Shown here one piece after another: positions 5,028-18,529 of a stretch of DNA of 18,529 nt. Source of the DNA: Anaerolineae bacterium. GTDB lineage: Bacteria; Chloroflexota; Anaerolineae; B4-G1. The translations under genes and the position numbers were made by a program. How positions within the stretch are numbered: position 1 is the first letter of the stretch; each line of letters begins with the position of its first letter. Location of the stretch: NCBI GenBank assembly GCA_016783285.1, contig JADHWW010000038.1, positions 1-18,529 of the forward strand, written 5' to 3'. The notes beneath the pieces were generated by a model, which was given only the letters and a program-made list of their open reading frames with translations, searched no databases and was not told the DNA's origin.

Positions 5028-5160
5028 GTCATTCTGAGCCGGAGCGCAGCGGAGGCGAAGAATCTCGTCTTGGATAGGCGATTTGGGCACTGTAGCGTGA
5101 GATTCTTCGCTTCACTGCGTTCCCCTTCGGCTACGCTCAGGGCAGGCTGCTCAGAATGAC
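5028..5160. repeat. 133-bp palindromic MITE-like element
   Basis: The ends are perfect 11-bp inverted repeats, GTCATTCTGAG and CTCAGAATGAC. Inside them, GGCGAAGAATCTC pairs with GAGATTCTTCGC, and CGGAGCGCAGCG faces CACTGCGTTCC. There is no ORF. It occupies most of the gap between the second dehydrogenase (4962) and the DUF5678-like gene (5219). The same class of CATTCTGAG-ended palindrome is familiar from many environmental genomes. No target-site duplication is obvious. Confidence 0.75.
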
Positions 5161-5190
5161 ACTGGGATGGTTATTTTTCTGGAACAGCCT

Positions 5191-5236
5191 AAATTGGTAC
5201 ATTGGAATCAACCCCAATCTACCAGTGTCCCAGTCC
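5191..5236. repeat. Short inverted pair of period-8 repeats
   Basis: The left arm AATTGGTACATTGG (5192-5205) faces the right arm CCAATCTACCAGTGTCCCAG (5214-5233) with only eight bases between. The unit matches the larger arrays at 5508-5604, 6411-6627 and 7879-8380. The right arm encodes the last residues (GLGHW) and the TAG stop of the DUF5678-like gene. Confidence 0.65.
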
Positions 5237-5488
5237 TTGAAAACCAACTCGATTCTGGTAGAAACGAAATGTCTTTTCGACAAAGATGACAGGGATGTGC
5301 CGTCTCCCCGTCTTCTCCTTGGCGATTTCTCTCGCTTTCACAGGGTCCTTCTCTGCCGCGACCACTTTCTCATTAGCCACCGCGATCCACTGATCAGGAT
5401 ATTCCTCCATCCAACGCTCATAGTTGGCAAAGGCCCACTCCTCGTCTTCCCAGAACTCTGGCGGCATTGGTTCTCTCTCAGATGCCAT
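5219..5488 (-). CDS. DUF5678-like small protein
   Basis: This is an 89-residue acidic/basic mixed protein with no signal or membrane segment. The central part, ERWMEEYPDQWIAVANEKVV, followed by AAEKDPVKAREIAKEKTG and PVIFVEK, matches the DUF5678-type pattern: an aromatic, a W-I-A-V strand, a Lys-Val-Val turn, an Ala-rich helix and a final strand. Function is unknown. The ATG at 5488 is chosen because GGAGGGTGAGGCA precedes it; the longer frame would begin inside octamer repeats. The last five residues and the stop lie in octamer repeat sequence, suggesting the original C-terminus was replaced or extended. It sits between enoyl-CoA hydratase and an acyl-CoA dehydrogenase, in the operon direction, without the protease partner seen at the left edge. 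Confidence 0.75.
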   Translation of the reverse strand: MASEREPMPPEFWEDEEWAFANYERWMEEYPDQWIAVANEKVVAAEKDPVKAREIAKEKTGRRHIPVIFVEKTFRFYQNRVGFQGLGHW

Positions 5489-5507
5489 TGCCTCACCCTC
5501 CAATCTC

Positions 5508-5604
5508 GGTAGATTGGTACATTGGTAGATTGGTAGACTGGTACATTGAGCGTACTCTACCAATTTCCCAATCTACCAATTTCCCAATTTCCCAATCTAC
5601 CGAT
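5508..5604. repeat. Empty inverted pair of period-8 arrays
   Basis: The left arm (5508-5548) has five units of the form AGATTGGT/ACATTGGT. The right arm (5557-5604) has six units alternating CTACCAAT and TTCCCAAT. Only eight bases separate them, so the transcript can fold into a long hairpin. The TAG stop of the enoyl-CoA hydratase gene (5597-5599) lies in the right arm. No gene remains inside, in contrast to the two related loci at 6411-6627 and 7879-8380. Confidence 0.85.
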
Positions 5605-6397
5605 CCTTGAACTGCGGATGCCGCTTCTCGAGAAAGGCGCTCACGCCCTCGCGGATGTCCTCGGTGTCGGCCAGGCCGACGAACTGGTCCGCTTCGATCC
5701 TCAACCCCTCCTCAATGGGGACGGCCAGCCCTGCGGTGATGGCCCGCAGCGCGGCGGCGATGGGGAACTTGGACTTGGACACGATTTTTCGCGCCAGTCC
5801 CCGCGCCTCCTTGAGCACCGCCCCGGCCGGCACGACCTTGTTGACCAGCCCCAGCCGGTAGGCCTCCTGCGCGGTGATCATGTCGCCGGTGAGGATCAGT
5901 TCGATAGCCTTGCCCTTGCCGGCCAGGCGGGCCAGCCGTTGCGTGCCGCCCCAGCCGGGGATTAGCCCCAGATTGATCTCAGGCTGACCCAACCGCGCCC
6001 GGTCGGAGCAGATGCGCACGTGGCAAGCCATTGCCAGTTCCAGCCCGCCGCCCAGGCAAAAGCCGTTGATGGCGGCGATGACCGGCTTGGCGGCCTTTTC
6101 GATCTTGAGGTTGAGACCCTGCCCGCGCTCAATGAACTCGCGGGCGACGGCGTACTCATTCTCGGGCTTGTCCAGCAGCGCCTTGATCTCCGGGATGTCG
6201 GCCCCGGCGACAAAGGCGTTGGTGCCCCCGCCGGTGATGACGATGGCCTTGACCTCGTCGTCGGCCAATAGTTCGTCAATCGCCTGGTCCAATTCGGTCA
6301 CCACCTGCTTGTTGAAGGAATTGACCGGCGGGTGGTCAATCGTCAGCACCGCGATCTTGTCTGCAACTTCAGTTCGGATATATTGCCATTCAGCCAT
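5597..6397 (-). CDS. Enoyl-CoA hydratase (crotonase family)
   Basis: It hydrates trans-2-enoyl-CoA to 3-hydroxyacyl-CoA, the second step of beta-oxidation. The 266 residues are typical. Crotonase features are clear: the oxyanion-hole segments NAFVAGADIPEI and NGFCLGGGLELAMACH, and both catalytic acids, Glu120 in GGGLELA and Glu140 in GQPEINLGLIPGWGGTQRL. Having both Glu residues fits a true hydratase rather than an isomerase-only relative. The start ATG has AAGGAGTGAAAA upstream. The stop codon is the TAG of a GGTAGATTGG octamer unit, so the gene ends inside the repeat array at 5508-5604. Upstream lies the deleted S23 copy, and before it the hydroxyacyl-CoA dehydrogenase that acts on its product. 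Confidence 0.95.
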   Translation of the reverse strand: MAEWQYIRTEVADKIAVLTIDHPPVNSFNKQVVTELDQAIDELLADDEVKAIVITGGGTNAFVAGADIPEIKALLDKPENEYAVAREFIERGQGLNLKIEKAAKPVIAAINGFCLGGGLELAMACHVRICSDRARLGQPEINLGLIPGWGGTQRLARLAGKGKAIELILTGDMITAQEAYRLGLVNKVVPAGAVLKEARGLARKIVSKSKFPIAAALRAITAGLAVPIEEGLRIEADQFVGLADTEDIREGVSAFLEKRHPQFKDR

Positions 6398-6410
6398 TTT
6401 TCACTCCTTA

Positions 6411-6627
6411 TGTTGGTATGTTGGTAGATTGGTAGGTTGGTAGGTTGGTACACTACTCCTCCAGGTGGTCGCCGTACTCTTTACGTCCTCGCTGCTGATT
6501 GCGGACGTACTCAAACCCACGCTGCCCCCGCTCTGCCATGCTCCCCTCCCCCCAATCTACCAGTTTCCCAATTTCCCAATCTACCAATTTCCCAATCTAC
6601 CAGTTTCCCAATCTACCAATCTACCAT
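6411..6627. repeat. Inverted period-8 arrays enclosing an S23 gene remnant
   Basis: The left arm (6411-6450) has units ATGTTGGT, AGATTGGT and AGGTTGGT. The right arm (about 6549-6627) has about nine units alternating CTACCAAT/CTACCAGT and TTCCCAAT. Between them lies a 28-codon ORF (6453-6539) derived from the S23 gene. The whole fills the gap between the hydroxyacyl-CoA dehydrogenase and enoyl-CoA hydratase genes. Confidence 0.85.
6453..6539 (-). pseudogene. S23 four-helix-bundle gene with an in-frame internal deletion
   Basis: The 28-codon ORF reads MAERGQRGFE joined to YVRNQQRGRKEYGDHLEE and a stop. These are residues 1-10 and 118-135 of the intact S23 protein at 7924-8331, with one substitution (Lys to Asn). 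Residues 11-117 (321 bp) are missing, exactly in frame. Start, stop, the purine-rich Shine-Dalgarno and both flanking octamer arrays are retained. All helices of the bundle are gone, so the product cannot have the family fold. Whether the short peptide is made is unknown; the ORF may persist only because it came with the element. Confidence 0.85.
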
Positions 6628-6628
6628 C

Positions 6629-7852
6629 CTATGCGTACTCGTGGAATCCTTTGCCCGTCTTCTCTCCGAGATGCCCGGCGCGGACGCGCAACTTGAGCGG
6701 GCGGGCGGGACGGAAGCGGGGCCCCAGTTCCTTCTCCAACGTTTCCAGTGTCTCCAGGACCACGTCCAGGCCAATCTTGTCGGCGATGACCAGCGGGCCG
6801 ACTCGTTCGCCACCGCAGGTCATGCCCGTGCCGGCGACCATCGCCATGTCAATGTCAGTAATACTGGCGATGTGCTCCTGCACGCACAGCGCGGCCTCGT
6901 TGATGACGGGGTACATCAGTCGTTCGGCACTGAACTTTGTGCCGGTGGGCGCCGCACCCGATTCCTGGAGTTCCTCGATCATCCCGTTGACCACATCTGA
7001 CTCGCCGCCGGGGTGGTCGTAAAAGCCAGCCCTCGTCTTTTCGCCGAAACGCCCGGCCTCGACCAGTTTGGAGAACAGCGGCGCCGGCGTCATGCGATCG
7101 CCGTACTCACTGTACAGATAGTCGCCCACGTGGCCGCAGACGTCAATGCCCAGCATGTCCATCAGCGTGAAGGGGCCCATCGGCATGCCCCACGCGACGA
7201 TGGCCTGGTCAATCTCTGTCGCCGTCGCCGCCCCTTCCTCCAGCGCCAAAACCGCCTCGTTGAGGTAGGGCATTAGCAGCCGGTTGACCAGGAAGCCGGG
7301 GCACTCTTGCACCACGACGGGGATCTTGCGCAATGATTCGGAAAACATCACCACGTCGTCAACCGTCTCCTGGCTGGTGTCGAGGCCGGGGATGACCTCG
7401 ACCAGTTTCATCACGTGGGCGGGGTTGAAAAAGTGCATGCCGATGATCTTGTGGGGCTTGCCCGTCGCCGCACCCATCTCAGAGATCGAAAGCGCCGAGG
7501 TGTTGCTGGCAAAGATCGTCTCCTCTGGGCAGACCCCCTCCAGTTCCTTGAGCACGGCCTTCTTGATGCCGATCTTTTCGGGCACGGCCTCAATGACAAT
7601 GTCCACGTCCTCAAACTCGTCGTAGGTGAGCGTCGGTGTCACCAGGTCGAGTTTGGCCTGCATGTCGCCCACGCCCATCTTGCCCTTGTTCACCCGCGCC
7701 TGGTAAATGGAGCGAACCTTTTCCATCCCCAGGTCGAGCATAGCTTGATCAATGTCCTTCATTACCACCGGCAGGCCGGAGTAGGTGATGACCTGGGCGA
7801 TTCCGCCGCCCATCGCTCCGGCGCCGACCACTCCTGCTTTGAAAATGTACAT
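6629..7852 (-). CDS. 3-hydroxyacyl-CoA dehydrogenase with two C-terminal HCDH domains
   Basis: It oxidises 3-hydroxyacyl-CoA to 3-ketoacyl-CoA with NAD. The 407 residues exceed the about 285 of single-domain enzymes because the C-terminal helical domain occurs twice, as in the dehydrogenase half of FadB/FadJ, but without a fused hydratase. The Rossmann motif is VGAGAMGGGIAQ (residues 9-20). The catalytic dyad is His140 in HFFNPAHVMKLVEV and Glu152; SNTSALS (116-122) and CPGFLVNRLLMPY are the other family landmarks. The second domain begins near ERLMYPVINEAALC and ends in GEKTGKGFHEY. The start ATG has AGGAGGTAACAAAC upstream. It lies between the intact and deleted S23 copies. Confidence 0.95.
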   Translation of the reverse strand: MYIFKAGVVGAGAMGGGIAQVITYSGLPVVMKDIDQAMLDLGMEKVRSIYQARVNKGKMGVGDMQAKLDLVTPTLTYDEFEDVDIVIEAVPEKIGIKKAVLKELEGVCPEETIFASNTSALSISEMGAATGKPHKIIGMHFFNPAHVMKLVEVIPGLDTSQETVDDVVMFSESLRKIPVVVQECPGFLVNRLLMPYLNEAVLALEEGAATATEIDQAIVAWGMPMGPFTLMDMLGIDVCGHVGDYLYSEYGDRMTPAPLFSKLVEAGRFGEKTRAGFYDHPGGESDVVNGMIEELQESGAAPTGTKFSAERLMYPVINEAALCVQEHIASITDIDMAMVAGTGMTCGGERVGPLVIADKIGLDVVLETLETLEKELGPRFRPARPLKLRVRAGHLGEKTGKGFHEYA

Positions 7853-7878
7853 GTTTGTTACCTCCTGTTTGGTGTTCA

Positions 7879-8380
7879 GTAGATTGGTATATTGGTAGAT
7901 TGGTACATTGGTAGGTTGGTACGCTATTCCTCCAGGTGGTCGCCATACTCTTTGCGCCCTCGCTGCTGCTTGCGCACGTAGCGGATGTAGCCGTTGAGAG
8001 AGCGTAGAGCACTGTGACAGAGTTCACGCTGACGAGGCAACTCCCCGGACGTGTACCCCACCTCGTCGCAGATGACGAACCCGCTCAATGTTTCATCAAG
8101 AGAGCCGCGGGCGATGTAGTAAAAGCGCAGGCTGTCCAAATAGTGATAGCGTCCATAGCCTTCAGCGATATTGAGAACGGCGCTGACCGCTGCCCTGCGC
8201 ATCTGATCTGCCAGGTTGTACCTCTCCTCCGACGGCAGCCGTTTGACAATGCGGTACGCCTCCCGTAGAACCTGCGATGCCAATTGATAGCACTCCAGAT
8301 CCTCAAACCCGCGCTGCCCCCGCTCTGCCATACTCCCCTCCCCCCAATCTACCAATTTCCCAGTTTCCCAATTTCCCAAC
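7879..8380. repeat. Inverted period-8 arrays enclosing an intact S23 gene
   Basis: The left arm (7879-7922) is about five units of AGATTGGT, ATATTGGT, ACATTGGT and AGGTTGGT. The right arm (about 8341-8380) reads CCCCCAAT, CTACCAAT, TTCCCAGT, TTCCCAAT, TTCCCAAC. TTGGTAGATTGG in one arm pairs perfectly with CCAATCTACCAA in the other, and the pairing extends with a few mismatches. The S23 gene would lie in the loop. Confidence 0.85.
7924..8331 (-). CDS. Four-helix-bundle protein of the 23S rRNA intervening-sequence (S23) family
   Basis: The 135-residue protein is all helical. The family pattern is present: FEDLECYQLASQVLREAYRI at the start, SEERYNLADQMRRAAVSAVL and NIAEGYGRY in the middle, then FYYIARGSLDETLSGFVICD. 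Members are encoded in intervening sequences of some bacterial 23S rRNAs and are related in fold to Avd of diversity-generating retroelements; their biochemical role is poorly known. The ATG at 8331 follows GGGGGGAGGGGAGT, a strong though unusual G-rich Shine-Dalgarno; the longer frame upstream runs through repeat sequence. Here it is not in rRNA but between two beta-oxidation genes, in the operon direction, bracketed by inverted octamer arrays. It looks like cargo of a mobile or RNA-processing element rather than a metabolic gene. Confidence 0.9.
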   Translation of the reverse strand: MAERGQRGFEDLECYQLASQVLREAYRIVKRLPSEERYNLADQMRRAAVSAVLNIAEGYGRYHYLDSLRFYYIARGSLDETLSGFVICDEVGYTSGELPRQRELCHSALRSLNGYIRYVRKQQRGRKEYGDHLEE

Positions 8381-8381
8381 C

Positions 8382-13495: not shown

Positions 13496-14968
13496 GTGAC
13501 CAAACGCCCCTGTCTGCAAATTCTATCCTCCGAGACCATTGAGCGCATCGTGGCCGAGGCCTACGACCTGCTGAGTGACCCCGGCGTGTGCATCCACTCC
13601 GGCCGCGCGCTGCGCTTCCTGGCCGAGCGCGGCGCGGAGGTGGACTTGCAGGCGCAGGTAGCGCGCATCCCGGCCGGCCTGGCCCGCAGAGCGGTCGAGA
13701 CGGCCCCCTCGTCGTTTCACCTCTACGATGCCGGCGGCCAGCCGATGGTGCACTATGGCGACAACGACGTGCACTTTGACCCTGGGTCGGCCGCCATCGA
13801 GATCCTCGACCACAACGCGACTCGTTCGCGTTCCCCGGTCACTGCCGACTTTGTGCGCTTCATCAAACTGGCCGACGGGCTGGACGCGCTGGACGCTGCC
13901 GCCACCTCCCTCGTCTGCGCGGACGTGCCGCAGGAAATCAGCGACCTGTACCGGCTCTATCTGACCCTGCTCCACACCCGCAAGCCGGTCGTCACCGGCG
14001 CGTTCGCCGTCGAGACCTGGGAGGTGATGAAGGATCTGCTGCTGGTGGTGGCCGGCAGCGAGGAGGCCCTGGCAGAGCGACCTATCGCCGTCTTTGACGT
14101 CTGCCCCTCCCCGCCGCTTCTGTGGTCCGAGATCACCTGCGAGAACCTGATGGACTGCGCCCAGTACCGGGTGCCGGCGGAACTGGTCAGTATGCCGCTG
14201 GCGGGAGCCACGGGGCCGGCGACTCTCCTGGGATCAGTCGTCCAGCACACCGCCGAGTGTCTGAGCGGCGTCACCATTCACCAACTGGTGGAGCCCGGCG
14301 CACCTATCGTCTGGGGCGGCTCGCCGGCCGCTTTCGACATGCGCACCGGCACGCCGCCGATGGGCGCTATTGAGACGATGATGATTGATTGCGCCTACGC
14401 CGAGGTGGGCAAGTATCTTGATCTGCCCACCCACGCCTACCTGGGAATGTCCGACGCCAAGGTGGTGGATGCCCAGTGCGGGTTCGAATCGGGCATCGGC
14501 GCGATCCTGGGGGCGCTGGCGGGCATCAACATGATCTCCGGCCCCGGCATGCTCGACTTTGAGAGTTGCTTCAGTCTGGAGAAACTGGTGATTGACGCCG
14601 AGATCGTGGGGATGGCACAGCGACTGGTGACGGGGATGGTCGAGCGGGAGACGCCGCTGGCGCTGGAGGTCATCCGCCGGGTGGGGCACGCGGGCCATTT
14701 CCTGAGCACGCCCCACACGCGCCGCTGGTTCCGGGAAGAACTGTTCATCCCCAGCTCGGTGGTGGACCGCGACTTTCGCCGCAACTGGGAGGCCCAGGGC
14801 AGCCTGGACGCCGCCGGGCGGGCCCACCGGCGCGTCGAAGCGCTCATCGCCGCCTACGAGCCCAAGTCTCTGCCCGACGAAGTCACCCGCGAACTGGAGG
14901 CCATCACATTGCGCGCCGCCCAATCTGCCGGAATGGATCACCTGCCGAATGAGAACACTGATCGGTAG
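13496..14968 (+). CDS. MttB-family corrinoid methyltransferase (non-pyrrolysine)
   Basis: Members demethylate a methylamine or quaternary amine and pass the methyl group to a cognate corrinoid protein. The 490 residues match the family length. Recognisable segments are DLLSDPGVCIHSGRALRFLA, HFDPGSAAIEI, LPTHAYLGMSDAKVVDAQCG and GPGMLDFESCFSLEKLVIDA. No in-frame TAG occurs before the stop, so it lacks the pyrrolysine of true trimethylamine methyltransferase and belongs with the MtgB-like enzymes (known substrates include glycine betaine, proline betaine and carnitine). The substrate here is unknown. The start is GTG with AGGAG six bases upstream. The last codons and TAG lie in the first unit of a 29-bp tandem repeat. 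It is followed by its probable corrinoid partner; no methyltransferase II or corrinoid activase is in the window. Confidence 0.92.
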   Translation: MTKRPCLQILSSETIERIVAEAYDLLSDPGVCIHSGRALRFLAERGAEVDLQAQVARIPAGLARRAVETAPSSFHLYDAGGQPMVHYGDNDVHFDPGSAAIEILDHNATRSRSPVTADFVRFIKLADGLDALDAAATSLVCADVPQEISDLYRLYLTLLHTRKPVVTGAFAVETWEVMKDLLLVVAGSEEALAERPIAVFDVCPSPPLLWSEITCENLMDCAQYRVPAELVSMPLAGATGPATLLGSVVQHTAECLSGVTIHQLVEPGAPIVWGGSPAAFDMRTGTPPMGAIETMMIDCAYAEVGKYLDLPTHAYLGMSDAKVVDAQCGFESGIGAILGALAGINMISGPGMLDFESCFSLEKLVIDAEIVGMAQRLVTGMVERETPLALEVIRRVGHAGHFLSTPHTRRWFREELFIPSSVVDRDFRRNWEAQGSLDAAGRAHRRVEALIAAYEPKSLPDEVTRELEAITLRAAQSAGMDHLPNENTDR

Positions 14969-15040
14969 GATTGACGGATCATAACACTAATTGGCAGGAT
15001 TGACGGATCATAACACTGATCGGCAGGATTGACGGATCAT
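14954..15040. repeat. Three tandem copies of a 29-bp unit after the mttB-like gene
   Basis: Units start at 14954, 14983 and 15012, each of the form AACACTGATCGG(C/T)AGGATT plus GACGGATCAT, with three differences or fewer. The first unit encodes the C-terminus and supplies the TAG stop, where the other two copies have CAG. A related stretch lies at 9926-9940. Confidence 0.85.
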
Positions 15041-15045
15041 TGCGA

Positions 15046-15094
15046 CCCCAATTTCCCAATCTCCCAATCTACAATCCACCAATCTACAATCCAC
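15046..15094. repeat. Solo period-7/8 array upstream of the corrinoid protein gene
   Basis: CCCCAAT, TTCCCAAT, CTCCCAAT, CTACAAT, CCACCAAT, CTACAAT are the same unit family as the right arms at 5557-5604, 6549-6627 and 8341-8380, here without an opposing arm. It ends next to the Shine-Dalgarno of the next gene. Together with the 29-bp repeats it fills the whole gap between the two methyltransferase genes. Confidence 0.75.
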
Positions 15095-15107
15095 AGAGGA
15101 GCCAAAA

Positions 15108-16809: not shown

Positions 16810-18529
16810 TCCGCAAAACGCTGCCCGACCCTTCGACAGCCCTTCGACGGGGCTCAGGCGATGTCCTGAGTTTATCGAAGGGACAAGGCTCAGGGCACCG
16901 CCTGGGCATCCTCGCCCTGTTGCTCCTGTTGCCCCTCCTGCTGTTCGCCCCTGTCGTCCTGGGGCCCAAGACGCTGCTGCCAGCCGACAATCTCTTCCTG
17001 TTTGAGCCCTATCGTGCTGCCGCGGACGAACTGGGCGTCGGCGTTCCTCAGAATCCCCTGCTCAACGACCTGATCCTGGAGAACTATGTCTGGAAGCAGT
17101 TCGTCGTCGAGGCGATTCAGAACCAGGAACTGCCGCTCTGGAATCCTTACATCTTTGCCGGTCATCCCTTCCTGGCCAACGGGCAGCACTCGGCGCTTTA
17201 TCCCCTCAGTGTCGTTTTCTACGTCCTCCCACTGTGGCGAGCCTACGGCATGTTCACCTGGCTGCAATTGGGTCTGGCGGGGATGTTTGCCTACCTCTTC
17301 GCCCGCGTGTTGGGCATTCGCCGCCTGGGGGGGCTGATCGCCGGGATCACCTTCCAGTTCAGCGGCTTTTTGGTCGTCTCAGTCGTGCACCCGATGATCA
17401 TTGCCGGGGCGTCGTGGCTGCCGTTCATCCTGGCGATGGTCGAGTTGATCGTGCAGCAGCGGCCGGCGCTGGGCCGGCGGCAGGCAACGCTGCCCTGGGC
17501 ACTCCTGGGGGCGCTGGGCCTGGGCTGCCAGATGCTGGCCGGTCACGCCGAGAACACCTACTTTGTCTTGCTGATCACCGGGGCTTTTGCGCTGTGGCGA
17601 CTCATTACTCAACCAACTAGCAAACCAACCAACAAAAGTCGGTTTGTTAGTTGGTTTGTTGGTTTGTTGGTTGGTTCCCGCCGGGCGGCGATGTGGCTCG
17701 TCGTGATGCTGACTCTGGGCCTGGCGCTGGGCGCGGTGCAGTTCGTGCCCCTGTACCAGGTGGCCACCACCAGTTTTCGCGCTGGCGAGGCGGCGGCGAG
17801 TCTCCAGCAAGTGCTGGGGTGGGCCTATCCCCCCCGGCGCCTGATCACCTTTGGTATTCCCAACTTTTTCGGCAACCCGGCCCACCGCAGTTACTTTGAT
17901 CTCTTTGAGTGGCGCACGGTTCCGGTCACCACGAACTCTTACGGGGAGCCGATCCTCAACCCCGATTGGGGCATCAAGAACTATGTCGAGGGCGGCGCCT
18001 ACCTGGGTCTCCTGCCGCTGTTCCTGGCGGTCATCGCAGTGCTGGCAAATCGGCAAATCAGCAAATCGGCAAATCGGCAAATCAGCAGTAGGTTGATTAA
18101 TTGGTTTCGCCACCCGCATATTCCCTTCTTCACATTGCTGGCTTTGTTTTCCCTCGGCTGCATCTTTGGCACGCCGCTCTATGCCCTCGTCTACGCGCTG
18201 CCCTTTATCAGCCAGTCCCACTCCCCCTTCCGCTGGGTGTTCCCGCTGACGCTGTCCGTTGCTGTGTTGGCGGGGTTCGGGGTGAATGTGCTCATCGAAA
18301 ACCGAAAACGATTGCTGGACGAGAAAGCAGGAAGCAAGAAGCAAGAGACAATTCGCAATTCGTTATTCGTTATCCGCAATTTACTCCTGCTCAACACCTC
18401 TCCGTCGTTGGTCTCTATCCTCGCTGCGGCGGCCTTCTGGGGCGGGATGGTGACGCTGGCGGGGTTGGCCCTCAGCTGGGTTTTCTTCACCCAGATTGAG
18501 CCGCTGGTGGAGCGTGTCTTTCTGTCGCT
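16806..18529 (+). CDS. YfhO-like multi-pass membrane protein (partial, runs off the right edge)
   Basis: About 574 codons are visible without a stop. After a short leader comes a first membrane helix ([20 protein letters not shown]), an extracytoplasmic loop with [12 protein letters not shown] and [20 protein letters not shown], and at least seven further hydrophobic helices. The D-x-x-x-x-x-x-P and L-W-N-P-x-x-x-x-G-x-P patterns fit YfhO/GT-C-type membrane proteins that use polyprenyl-phosphate sugars for envelope glycosylation. The ATG overlaps the stop of the polyprenol-phosphate glycosyltransferase, which could supply its donor. Four repeat insertions are carried in frame: [18 protein letters not shown] near the N-terminus, [20 protein letters not shown] (17610-17674), [14 protein letters not shown] (18044-18086) and [13 protein letters not shown] (18329-18381). 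They fall in loops or between helices. Confidence 0.85.
16829..16882. repeat. Dispersed palindromic repeat in the YfhO-like leader
   Basis: The ends CCCTTCGA and TCGAAGGG are inverted, and an inner pair CTCAGG (16853-16858) and CCTGAG (16865-16870) forms the hairpin tip. It is the complete form of the element seen in part in etfA, etfB and at 3796-3812. Confidence 0.75.
17610..17674. repeat. Inverted pair of short tandem repeats inside the YfhO-like gene
   Basis: The left arm of AACCAAC/CAAACCAA units (17610-17636) faces a right arm of TTTGTTGG/TTGGTTTG units (17641-17674) with four bases between. The layout is the same as the octamer pairs of the beta-oxidation operon, but the unit differs. 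The reading frame is kept throughout. Confidence 0.75.
18044..18086. repeat. Period-8 tandem repeat inside the YfhO-like gene
   Basis: Five units of CAAATCGG/CAAATCAG in succession encode [14 protein letters not shown] in a cytoplasmic or periplasmic loop. The frame is kept. Confidence 0.8.
18329..18381. repeat. Short tandem repeats inside the YfhO-like gene
   Basis: GAAGCAA-type copies are followed by CGCAATTCGTTATTCGTTAT, units of seven to eight bases related to the NCGAATN array after glgA. They encode [16 protein letters not shown]. Confidence 0.55.

Follow-up and report, generated by a model that had tools for sequence, protein, structure and literature searches.

In the 18,529-nucleotide stretch of Anaerolineae DNA analysed here (the window; contig JADHWW010000038.1), a gene for an S23 protein, the four-helix-bundle family known from intervening sequences (IVSs) of 23S rRNA, lies among beta-oxidation genes and is enclosed by two facing arms of a tandem 8-bp repeat. 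The gene order on the minus strand is TetR, thiolase, an 88-aa open reading frame (ORF), S23, 3-hydroxyacyl-CoA dehydrogenase (3HCDH), enoyl-CoA hydratase, a DUF5678 protein and two acyl-CoA dehydrogenases, and the nearest relatives of the 3HCDH are found in metagenome-assembled genomes (MAGs) of Anaerolineae/Chloroflexi at 81-85% identity. Here we describe how such arms accompany S23 genes across genomes, how the repeat unit follows the S23 lineage and how occupied, deleted and empty sites occur among relatives, and we weigh what kind of element this might be.

S23 genes between inverted octamer arrays

The original prediction, made from the window alone, described four intergenic loci with inverted period-8 arms. 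Three of them hold arrays by Tandem Repeats Finder (7879-7921 with 8343-8379; 6412-6450 with 6551-6626; 5508-5548 with 5556-5605), while the fourth, with about two units per arm, is weak and on folding alone lies within chance (RNA fold of 5187-5240, z -1.3; 24/200 shuffles as good). The array hairpin without S23 folds far beyond chance (5505-5606, z -9.6; 0/200), and the deleted element also folds better than its shuffles (6409-6628, z -3.1; 0/200). The intact element does so weakly (7877-8381, z -1.6; 5/100), probably because its long coding interior dominates. The four loci thus differ in strength. Read in the sense of the operon, the arrays start where the preceding gene stops or next to its stop codon, and those of the complete, deleted and solo elements end ahead of the next ribosome-binding site. 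The predicted in-frame loss of residues 11-117 from the second S23 copy proved exact, and its two remaining pieces match the full window copy at 94.7% and 89.5% identity.

Table 1. Features of the S23 elements and related arrays in the window.
Feature	Position	Strand	Description
Complete S23 element	7879..8380	-	Inverted period-8 arms enclosing intact S23, between 88-aa ORF and 3HCDH
5' (upstream) arm of complete element	8343..8379	-	Units like ATTGGGAA / ATTGGTAG in operon sense; starts at 88-aa ORF stop codon
S23 gene	7924..8331	-	135 aa, four-helix bundle, PF05635 / TIGR02436
3' arm of complete element	7879..7922	-	Units like CTACCAAT; then 3HCDH ribosome-binding site
Deleted S23 element	6411..6627	-	Same kind of arms; S23 with in-frame 321-bp internal deletion
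S23 remnant	6453..6539	-	28 residues, 10 N-terminal and 18 C-terminal
5' arm of deleted element	6551..6626	-	Starts beside 3HCDH stop codon
3' arm of deleted element	6412..6450	-	
Solo array hairpin without S23	5508..5605	-	Between enoyl-CoA hydratase and DUF5678 gene; fold z -9.6
Weak candidate	5191..5236	-	About two units per arm; DUF5678 ORF stop codon inside; fold z -1.3

The window S23 protein (query reference 7924-8334, with one extra residue ahead of the ATG) matches both PF05635 (E 6.3e-26, 91.1 bits, curated cut-off 33.8) and TIGR02436 (E 2e-26, 92.4 bits, curated cut-off 24). Its predicted structure comprises four helices (mean pLDDT 83.3) with XCC0516 (2gsc) as the top structural match, and similarity of the predicted fold extends to Avd (4dwl; TM 0.65-0.68 depending on the query, Foldseek E 0.02-0.07) and to chains of diversity-generating retroelement (DGR) ribonucleoproteins. 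Each of the solved entries 2gsc, 2rld and 4dwl has chains A to E, in keeping with the pentamers that Avd and XCC0516 form. S23 evolves under purifying selection: among the 34 pairs listed, which overlap and have homologous outer flanks, the ratio of nonsynonymous to synonymous change (pN/pS) is 0.07-0.24 in 33, the exception being a pair at 0.33 whose synonymous divergence (dS) is only 0.02.

Other repeats occur on the same contig. Three copies of a 29-bp repeat, AACACTGATCGGCAGGATTGACGGATCAT, stand at the end of the 13496-14968 ORF (14954-15095), followed directly by another CCCAATCT-type array, and period-8 arrays with other units are present at 17642-17676 and 18044-18087 (GTTGGTTT; GGCAAATC). 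An inverted repeat of about 130 bp, seen by eye at 5030-5165 between the DUF5678 and acyl-CoA dehydrogenase genes (GTCATTCTGAGC...GAAGAATCTC), resembles a separate short repetitive element.

Arms and repeat units go with the S23 gene

Inverted arms, usually of period 7 or 8, are associated with S23 far above control genes. For the Chloroflexota, 112 matches less 6 duplicates and 13 weak or partial ones left 93 S23 genes, 88 of which have at least 200 nt on both sides. Complementarity between their upstream and downstream flanks has a median score of 26.5 and reaches 20 or more in 75%, as compared with a median of 13 in both control sets, where 8.4% of 1760 pairs of exchanged arms and 8.0% of 162 other genes from the same loci score as high. 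The phylum of a Melainabacteria MAG (G140), Cyanobacteriota in GTDB, gives a similar result, with scores of at least 20 in 80% of 35 S23 genes vs 8.6% of 700 exchanged pairs and 14% of 57 control genes. Among Nitrospirota, Planctomycetota and KSB1 records, phyla that have no control set, the same score is reached at 8/11 S23 loci. Searches by tblastn placed S23 in 20 plasmid records, and arms were visible by eye in six of the seven inspected, all but that of Pseudanabaena PCC 7367. Plasmids of the cyanobacteria Nostoc sp. C052 and Geminocystis sp. NIES-3709 are among those with S23 between arms. One S23 with arms, on a Picosynechococcus PCC 7003 plasmid (L348), lies between cmr2 (cas10) and cmr3 of a type III-B CRISPR operon.

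The comparisons that follow use 134 loci kept after weak matches and exact duplicates were removed; related loci remain, and pairs are non-independent. S23 mostly lies in sense with its neighbours: as judged with a crude ORF picker, both neighbours have the same sense at 77 loci and both the opposite sense at five, the upstream gene has the same and the downstream the opposite sense at 22, the reverse holds at 12, and a neighbour is missing at 18. When 55 loci below the array threshold and one without a co-directional upstream ORF are set aside, the array starts -40 to +20 nt from the stop of the upstream gene at 66 of the remaining 78, a count that comes with no null model. In the nearest 100 nt (n=127), GC skew tends to be positive upstream (87%) and negative downstream (80%).

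S23 lineages also tend to carry their own repeat unit. With a unit regarded as shared at a local score of at least 18, coding sequence being excluded and outer flanks non-homologous, sharing rises with S23 protein identity from 2% of pairs below 45% and 4% at 45-55% to 21% of 136 pairs at 55-65% and 68% of 84 pairs at 65-75%. Pairs at 65-80% identity from different genomes and unrelated sites have a common unit in 57/87 cases (65.5%), vs none of 83 pairs of different S23 clades within one genome and 2.2% of 8352 pairs that differ in both genome and clade; the lack of sharing between clades of one genome means that the unit is no property of the genome as a whole. Among the matches listed for 249 class members, 14 have the window octamer array, 10 have window-type S23 (at least 69% identity, a cut picked after seeing the list) and six have both, so that the array occurs in 6/10 genomes with this type of S23 vs 8/239 without (Fisher p 1.8e-6). 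S23 number per genome also rises with the density of S23-free arrays (rho 0.50 for 57 loci and 0.59 for the 45 from Chloroflexota), the S23 counts of about 12 genomes coming from a less sensitive protein search.

This matching of protein and repeat suggests recognition, and the account that we hold, at slightly better than even confidence, is that of a proliferating, probably selfish S23/array element in which the protein recognises the repeat of its own lineage. The element would consist of two arms of tandem 7-8-bp units, reverse-complementary to each other, with an S23 gene between them, and the protein would recognise the array as single strand, hairpin or cruciform, keep the arms alike and help new arms or whole elements to arise. 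We infer that binding of the array contributes to spread, and that some enzyme moves the DNA. Elements would settle in sense between a stop codon and the next ribosome-binding site, where they might be almost harmless. Deleted forms would result when the S23 interior is lost, and solo hairpins when the gene is lost, as in the window. In a wider form, which we put forward tentatively and with rather less confidence, S23 and 7-8-mer arrays would be widespread partners, an S23 ring reading its own array with one unit per subunit and driving both spread and homogenisation. Such a ring would explain the fixed 7-8-nt period, and the partnership could be the source of many unexplained intergenic arrays, the 23S IVSs being its rRNA-resident members.

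Full, deleted and empty sites and the origin of the elements

Gaps within the same operon vary among other Anaerolineae, as seen in 80 loci fetched via the 3HCDH protein. S23 stands directly before 3HCDH in L003, as a full copy with the window's octamer, and in L079; a differently truncated S23 occupies the window's second site in L001; of two S23 copies in separate gaps of L004, one is nearly full-length, with TCGCAGG-like arms, and the other is internally deleted; and further copies lie in operon gaps of L029, L012 and L036. A tandem pair of identical S23 copies with AAGCTGG arrays follows the 3HCDH gene of L036 (5425-6533) and looks as if duplicated via the arrays. Internally deleted forms were found twice in the search of loci (the window and L004) and a third time by site comparison (G010); the deletions of the window and G010 are in frame, that of L004 reads as out of frame.

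Two sites were compared between relatives, with genomes drawn from the matches listed. At the L084 site, S23 with GGGAGTA arms is present in G012, G009 and G111; in G010, with flanks that match those of G012 at 87% and 95% identity, the element lacks 234 bp of the S23 interior, in frame; and in G004 the element is absent, the next gene beginning directly at the gene end. At the L082 site, S23 with ACAAGG arms is present in G010, G004 and G111, while in G013, G002 and G011 the matched ends stand about 145 nt apart, a short spacer as compared with about 613 nt, and the site in G003 contains other sequence, about 850 nt long. Thus full, internally deleted and empty forms differ between relatives at one and the same site, in support of the family with these forms that the original prediction had inferred. 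In G009 the L082 site (L274) keeps the 5' array and the S23 N-terminus, and other sequence replaces the remainder.

A number of observations weigh against a proliferating element. Arrays are mostly found without S23: 45 of the 47 in operon gaps have no called S23 ORF beside them (230 gaps, L001-L054), and some genomes without S23 have arrays (L027, L014). The original prediction had linked mobility both to arrays keeping company with S23 and to differences between close relatives; the former does not hold, whereas the latter does. The correlation of S23 number with array density ignores kinship. At the L084 and L082 sites we saw neither terminal repeats outside the arms nor a clear target duplication, and an empty gene end is similar to the unit, as would be expected of growth in place. 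At 75% identity or more, 28/36 pairs have shared outer flanks, so S23 copies turn over slowly. Unit sharing at unrelated sites drops to 1/7 among pairs at 75-85% identity (several score 15-16 against the cut of 18) and is 1/1 at 85% or more; the 75-85% pairs are a misfit, too few to settle the matter. The eight array genomes in which no window-type S23 was found, including G147 (at least 83 hits) and G218 (at least 65), are either counter-evidence or draft gaps, and G077 has at least 183 overlapping pattern hits (several per array) with one window-type S23 among the matches listed.

Many of these points would be expected if arrays arose in place by replication slippage and template switching and were homogenised as hairpins, with S23 a cellular gene that persists nearby. 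S23-free arrays are indeed common, the arms show no strand preference in their mismatches (below), and one heptamer study repeats a slippage hypothesis for heptamer abundance (PMC4692102). The two Anaerolineae sites and the pairs at 75-85% identity fit as well. This explanation does not, however, account for an association with S23 far above that of control genes, nor for units that agree within a clade across genomes at unrelated sites and differ between clades of the same genome, and we consider it unlikely, though the most serious of the alternatives. As to the arrays themselves, 45 of the 47 in operon gaps have period 7 or 8, with units that vary between genomes, and the S23-free arrays of the density comparison have period 7 in 36 cases, 8 in 19, 6 in three and 9 in three. 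At L257 (840-1580), nested arrays of several units flank an ordinary gene that reads like a small thioesterase, with no S23 seen between them.

In G405, the sole genome with many young copies, a further point against the proliferating element is that the S23 unit rides an ordinary terminal-repeat element; the young copies, with their ends and 3-bp duplications, count in its favour as well. The S23 copies of G405 with GGTTTCA arms match L327 at about 97-99% identity along some 290-385 bp and lie at different sites. Of 13 loci fetched, eight were examined; all eight copies open with the same terminal inverted repeat (AACTGAYGTTACGCA), and each of the five copies whose two ends were both located shows matching 3-bp duplications. 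In this genome the carrier may do the moving. That S23 and its arms are in general passengers of elements like miniature inverted-repeat transposable elements (MITEs), with a transposase acting in trans, is nevertheless quite improbable, the two Anaerolineae sites having arms of the same kind but no such ends. L330 and other G405 loci hold a further element of a few hundred bp with several heptamer arrays and its own terminal repeats (ACCTGAGTTCGG...CCGAACTGAGGT), inserted in the S23 of several copies.

Ribosomal intervening sequences and other known systems

In Azospirillum lipoferum 4B, S23 lies inside a 23S rRNA gene on plasmid AZO_p2 (Rfam LSU, 1552 bits), with inverted period-7 arms on both sides that fold as a single long stem; the original prediction had likened the window elements to such IVSs, and this one bears the likeness out. 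In the Coxiella IVS, as reported, heptamer repeats precede the S23 ORF, and RNase III processes the IVS with its 5' site at the first repeat (PMC4990558). The 23S rRNA IVSs thus share the S23/array architecture and probably belong to the same class, one tested and one read about being a small sample; if the S23/array element is real, they would be its members resident in rRNA. The window itself has no Rfam match, its S23 being flanked by beta-oxidation genes outside 23S rRNA, and a 23S motif scan of the S23 loci found none within 23S rRNA, the lone motif match lying away from S23 in a 3HCDH locus (L008).

The IVSs also raise the prospect of an element acting at the RNA level, in which the arms fold in the transcript and RNase III removes or isolates the S23 segment, splitting the operon mRNA as it does 23S rRNA. 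Sense orientation, the arms in Azospirillum and the position of the Coxiella cleavage site would all be consistent with this. Between arms, though, G.U and A.C mismatches are about equally frequent (187 vs 195, in the 60 of 134 loci with an arm score of at least 18). In the absence of a wobble bias, homogenisation of the arms at the DNA level is more likely than selection on RNA, for which this test gave a null result; the splitting of the transcript suggested in the original prediction is consequently unsupported. The weak fold of the intact window element points the same way, and we regard RNA-level action as improbable.

No recognisable description of S23 with heptamer arms outside rRNA was found in the open-access literature available to us. 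Heptamer arrays by themselves (short tandemly repeated repetitive sequences, STRR, and similar repeats of Nostoc, Xanthomonas and Beggiatoaceae) are described as intergenic direct 7-bp arrays, often near one ORF (PMC4692102; PMC4679880); the S23 arms resemble them as intergenic direct arrays of short units and differ in pairing as inverted arms. A term search within these papers, as far as their text was available, returned no mention of S23, 23S rRNA or four helix in PMC4679880 and none of 23S in PMC4692102. The function and origin of IVSs are called unclear (PMC4990558) and detailed literature on heptamer repeats is said to be unavailable (PMC4692102); linking the two makes both questions testable. 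For S23, the candidate ligand would be its own repeat, and for heptamer arrays S23 would be a candidate partner, which may explain the origin of a widespread, puzzling class of DNA repeats. If true, this would define a class of very small selfish elements that hide at operon stop codons.

Among known systems, the 23S IVSs are the closest in layout, with the S23 ORF in the loop of an inverted-repeat stem and heptamer repeats in that stem, as described for Coxiella (PMC4990558) and seen in Azospirillum; the window elements differ in sitting between protein genes. DGRs share with S23 the predicted Avd-like fold, and homing in BPP-1 needs a DNA hairpin or cruciform that includes or adjoins the TAG stop of mtd (PMC3240598). 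An S23 that acts like Avd with a reverse transcriptase, homing to DNA hairpins at stop codons, can be imagined on these grounds, and S23 counts correlate with those of reverse transcriptases (RVT_1; rho 0.44 over 120 draft genomes, among the matches listed, counted per genome rather than at S23 loci). Yet Y1 transposases correlate almost equally (rho 0.40), so that general element load may explain both, and of the 28 genomes with at least five S23 matches, 13 have no RVT_1 match and three no Y1_Tnp match among those listed. We think such retro-mobility very improbable and, given these modest correlations and the genomes without a match, reject either enzyme as a required partner.

Like MITEs, deleted S23 forms keep both ends and occupied and empty orthologous sites exist, and in G405 S23 lies within a terminal-repeat element with 3-bp duplications; unlike MITEs, the two Anaerolineae sites lack a terminal inverted repeat outside the arms and any clear duplication. 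REP/RAYT systems (repetitive extragenic palindromes and their associated tyrosine transposases) combine few protein genes with many short repeats, as S23 and its arrays do, the clade of the protein being matched to the repeat. The S23 element differs from them in that its gene is not a Y1 transposase and its arms are tandem arrays, whereas a REP is a single palindrome; in G003, G063 and G077, arrays occur together with window-type S23 and no Y1_Tnp is among the matches listed. The likeness, which is one of analogy only, is that the S23 clade goes with the repeat unit (57/87 vs 0/83, and 1/7 at 75-85% identity), much as a RAYT clade goes with its REP.

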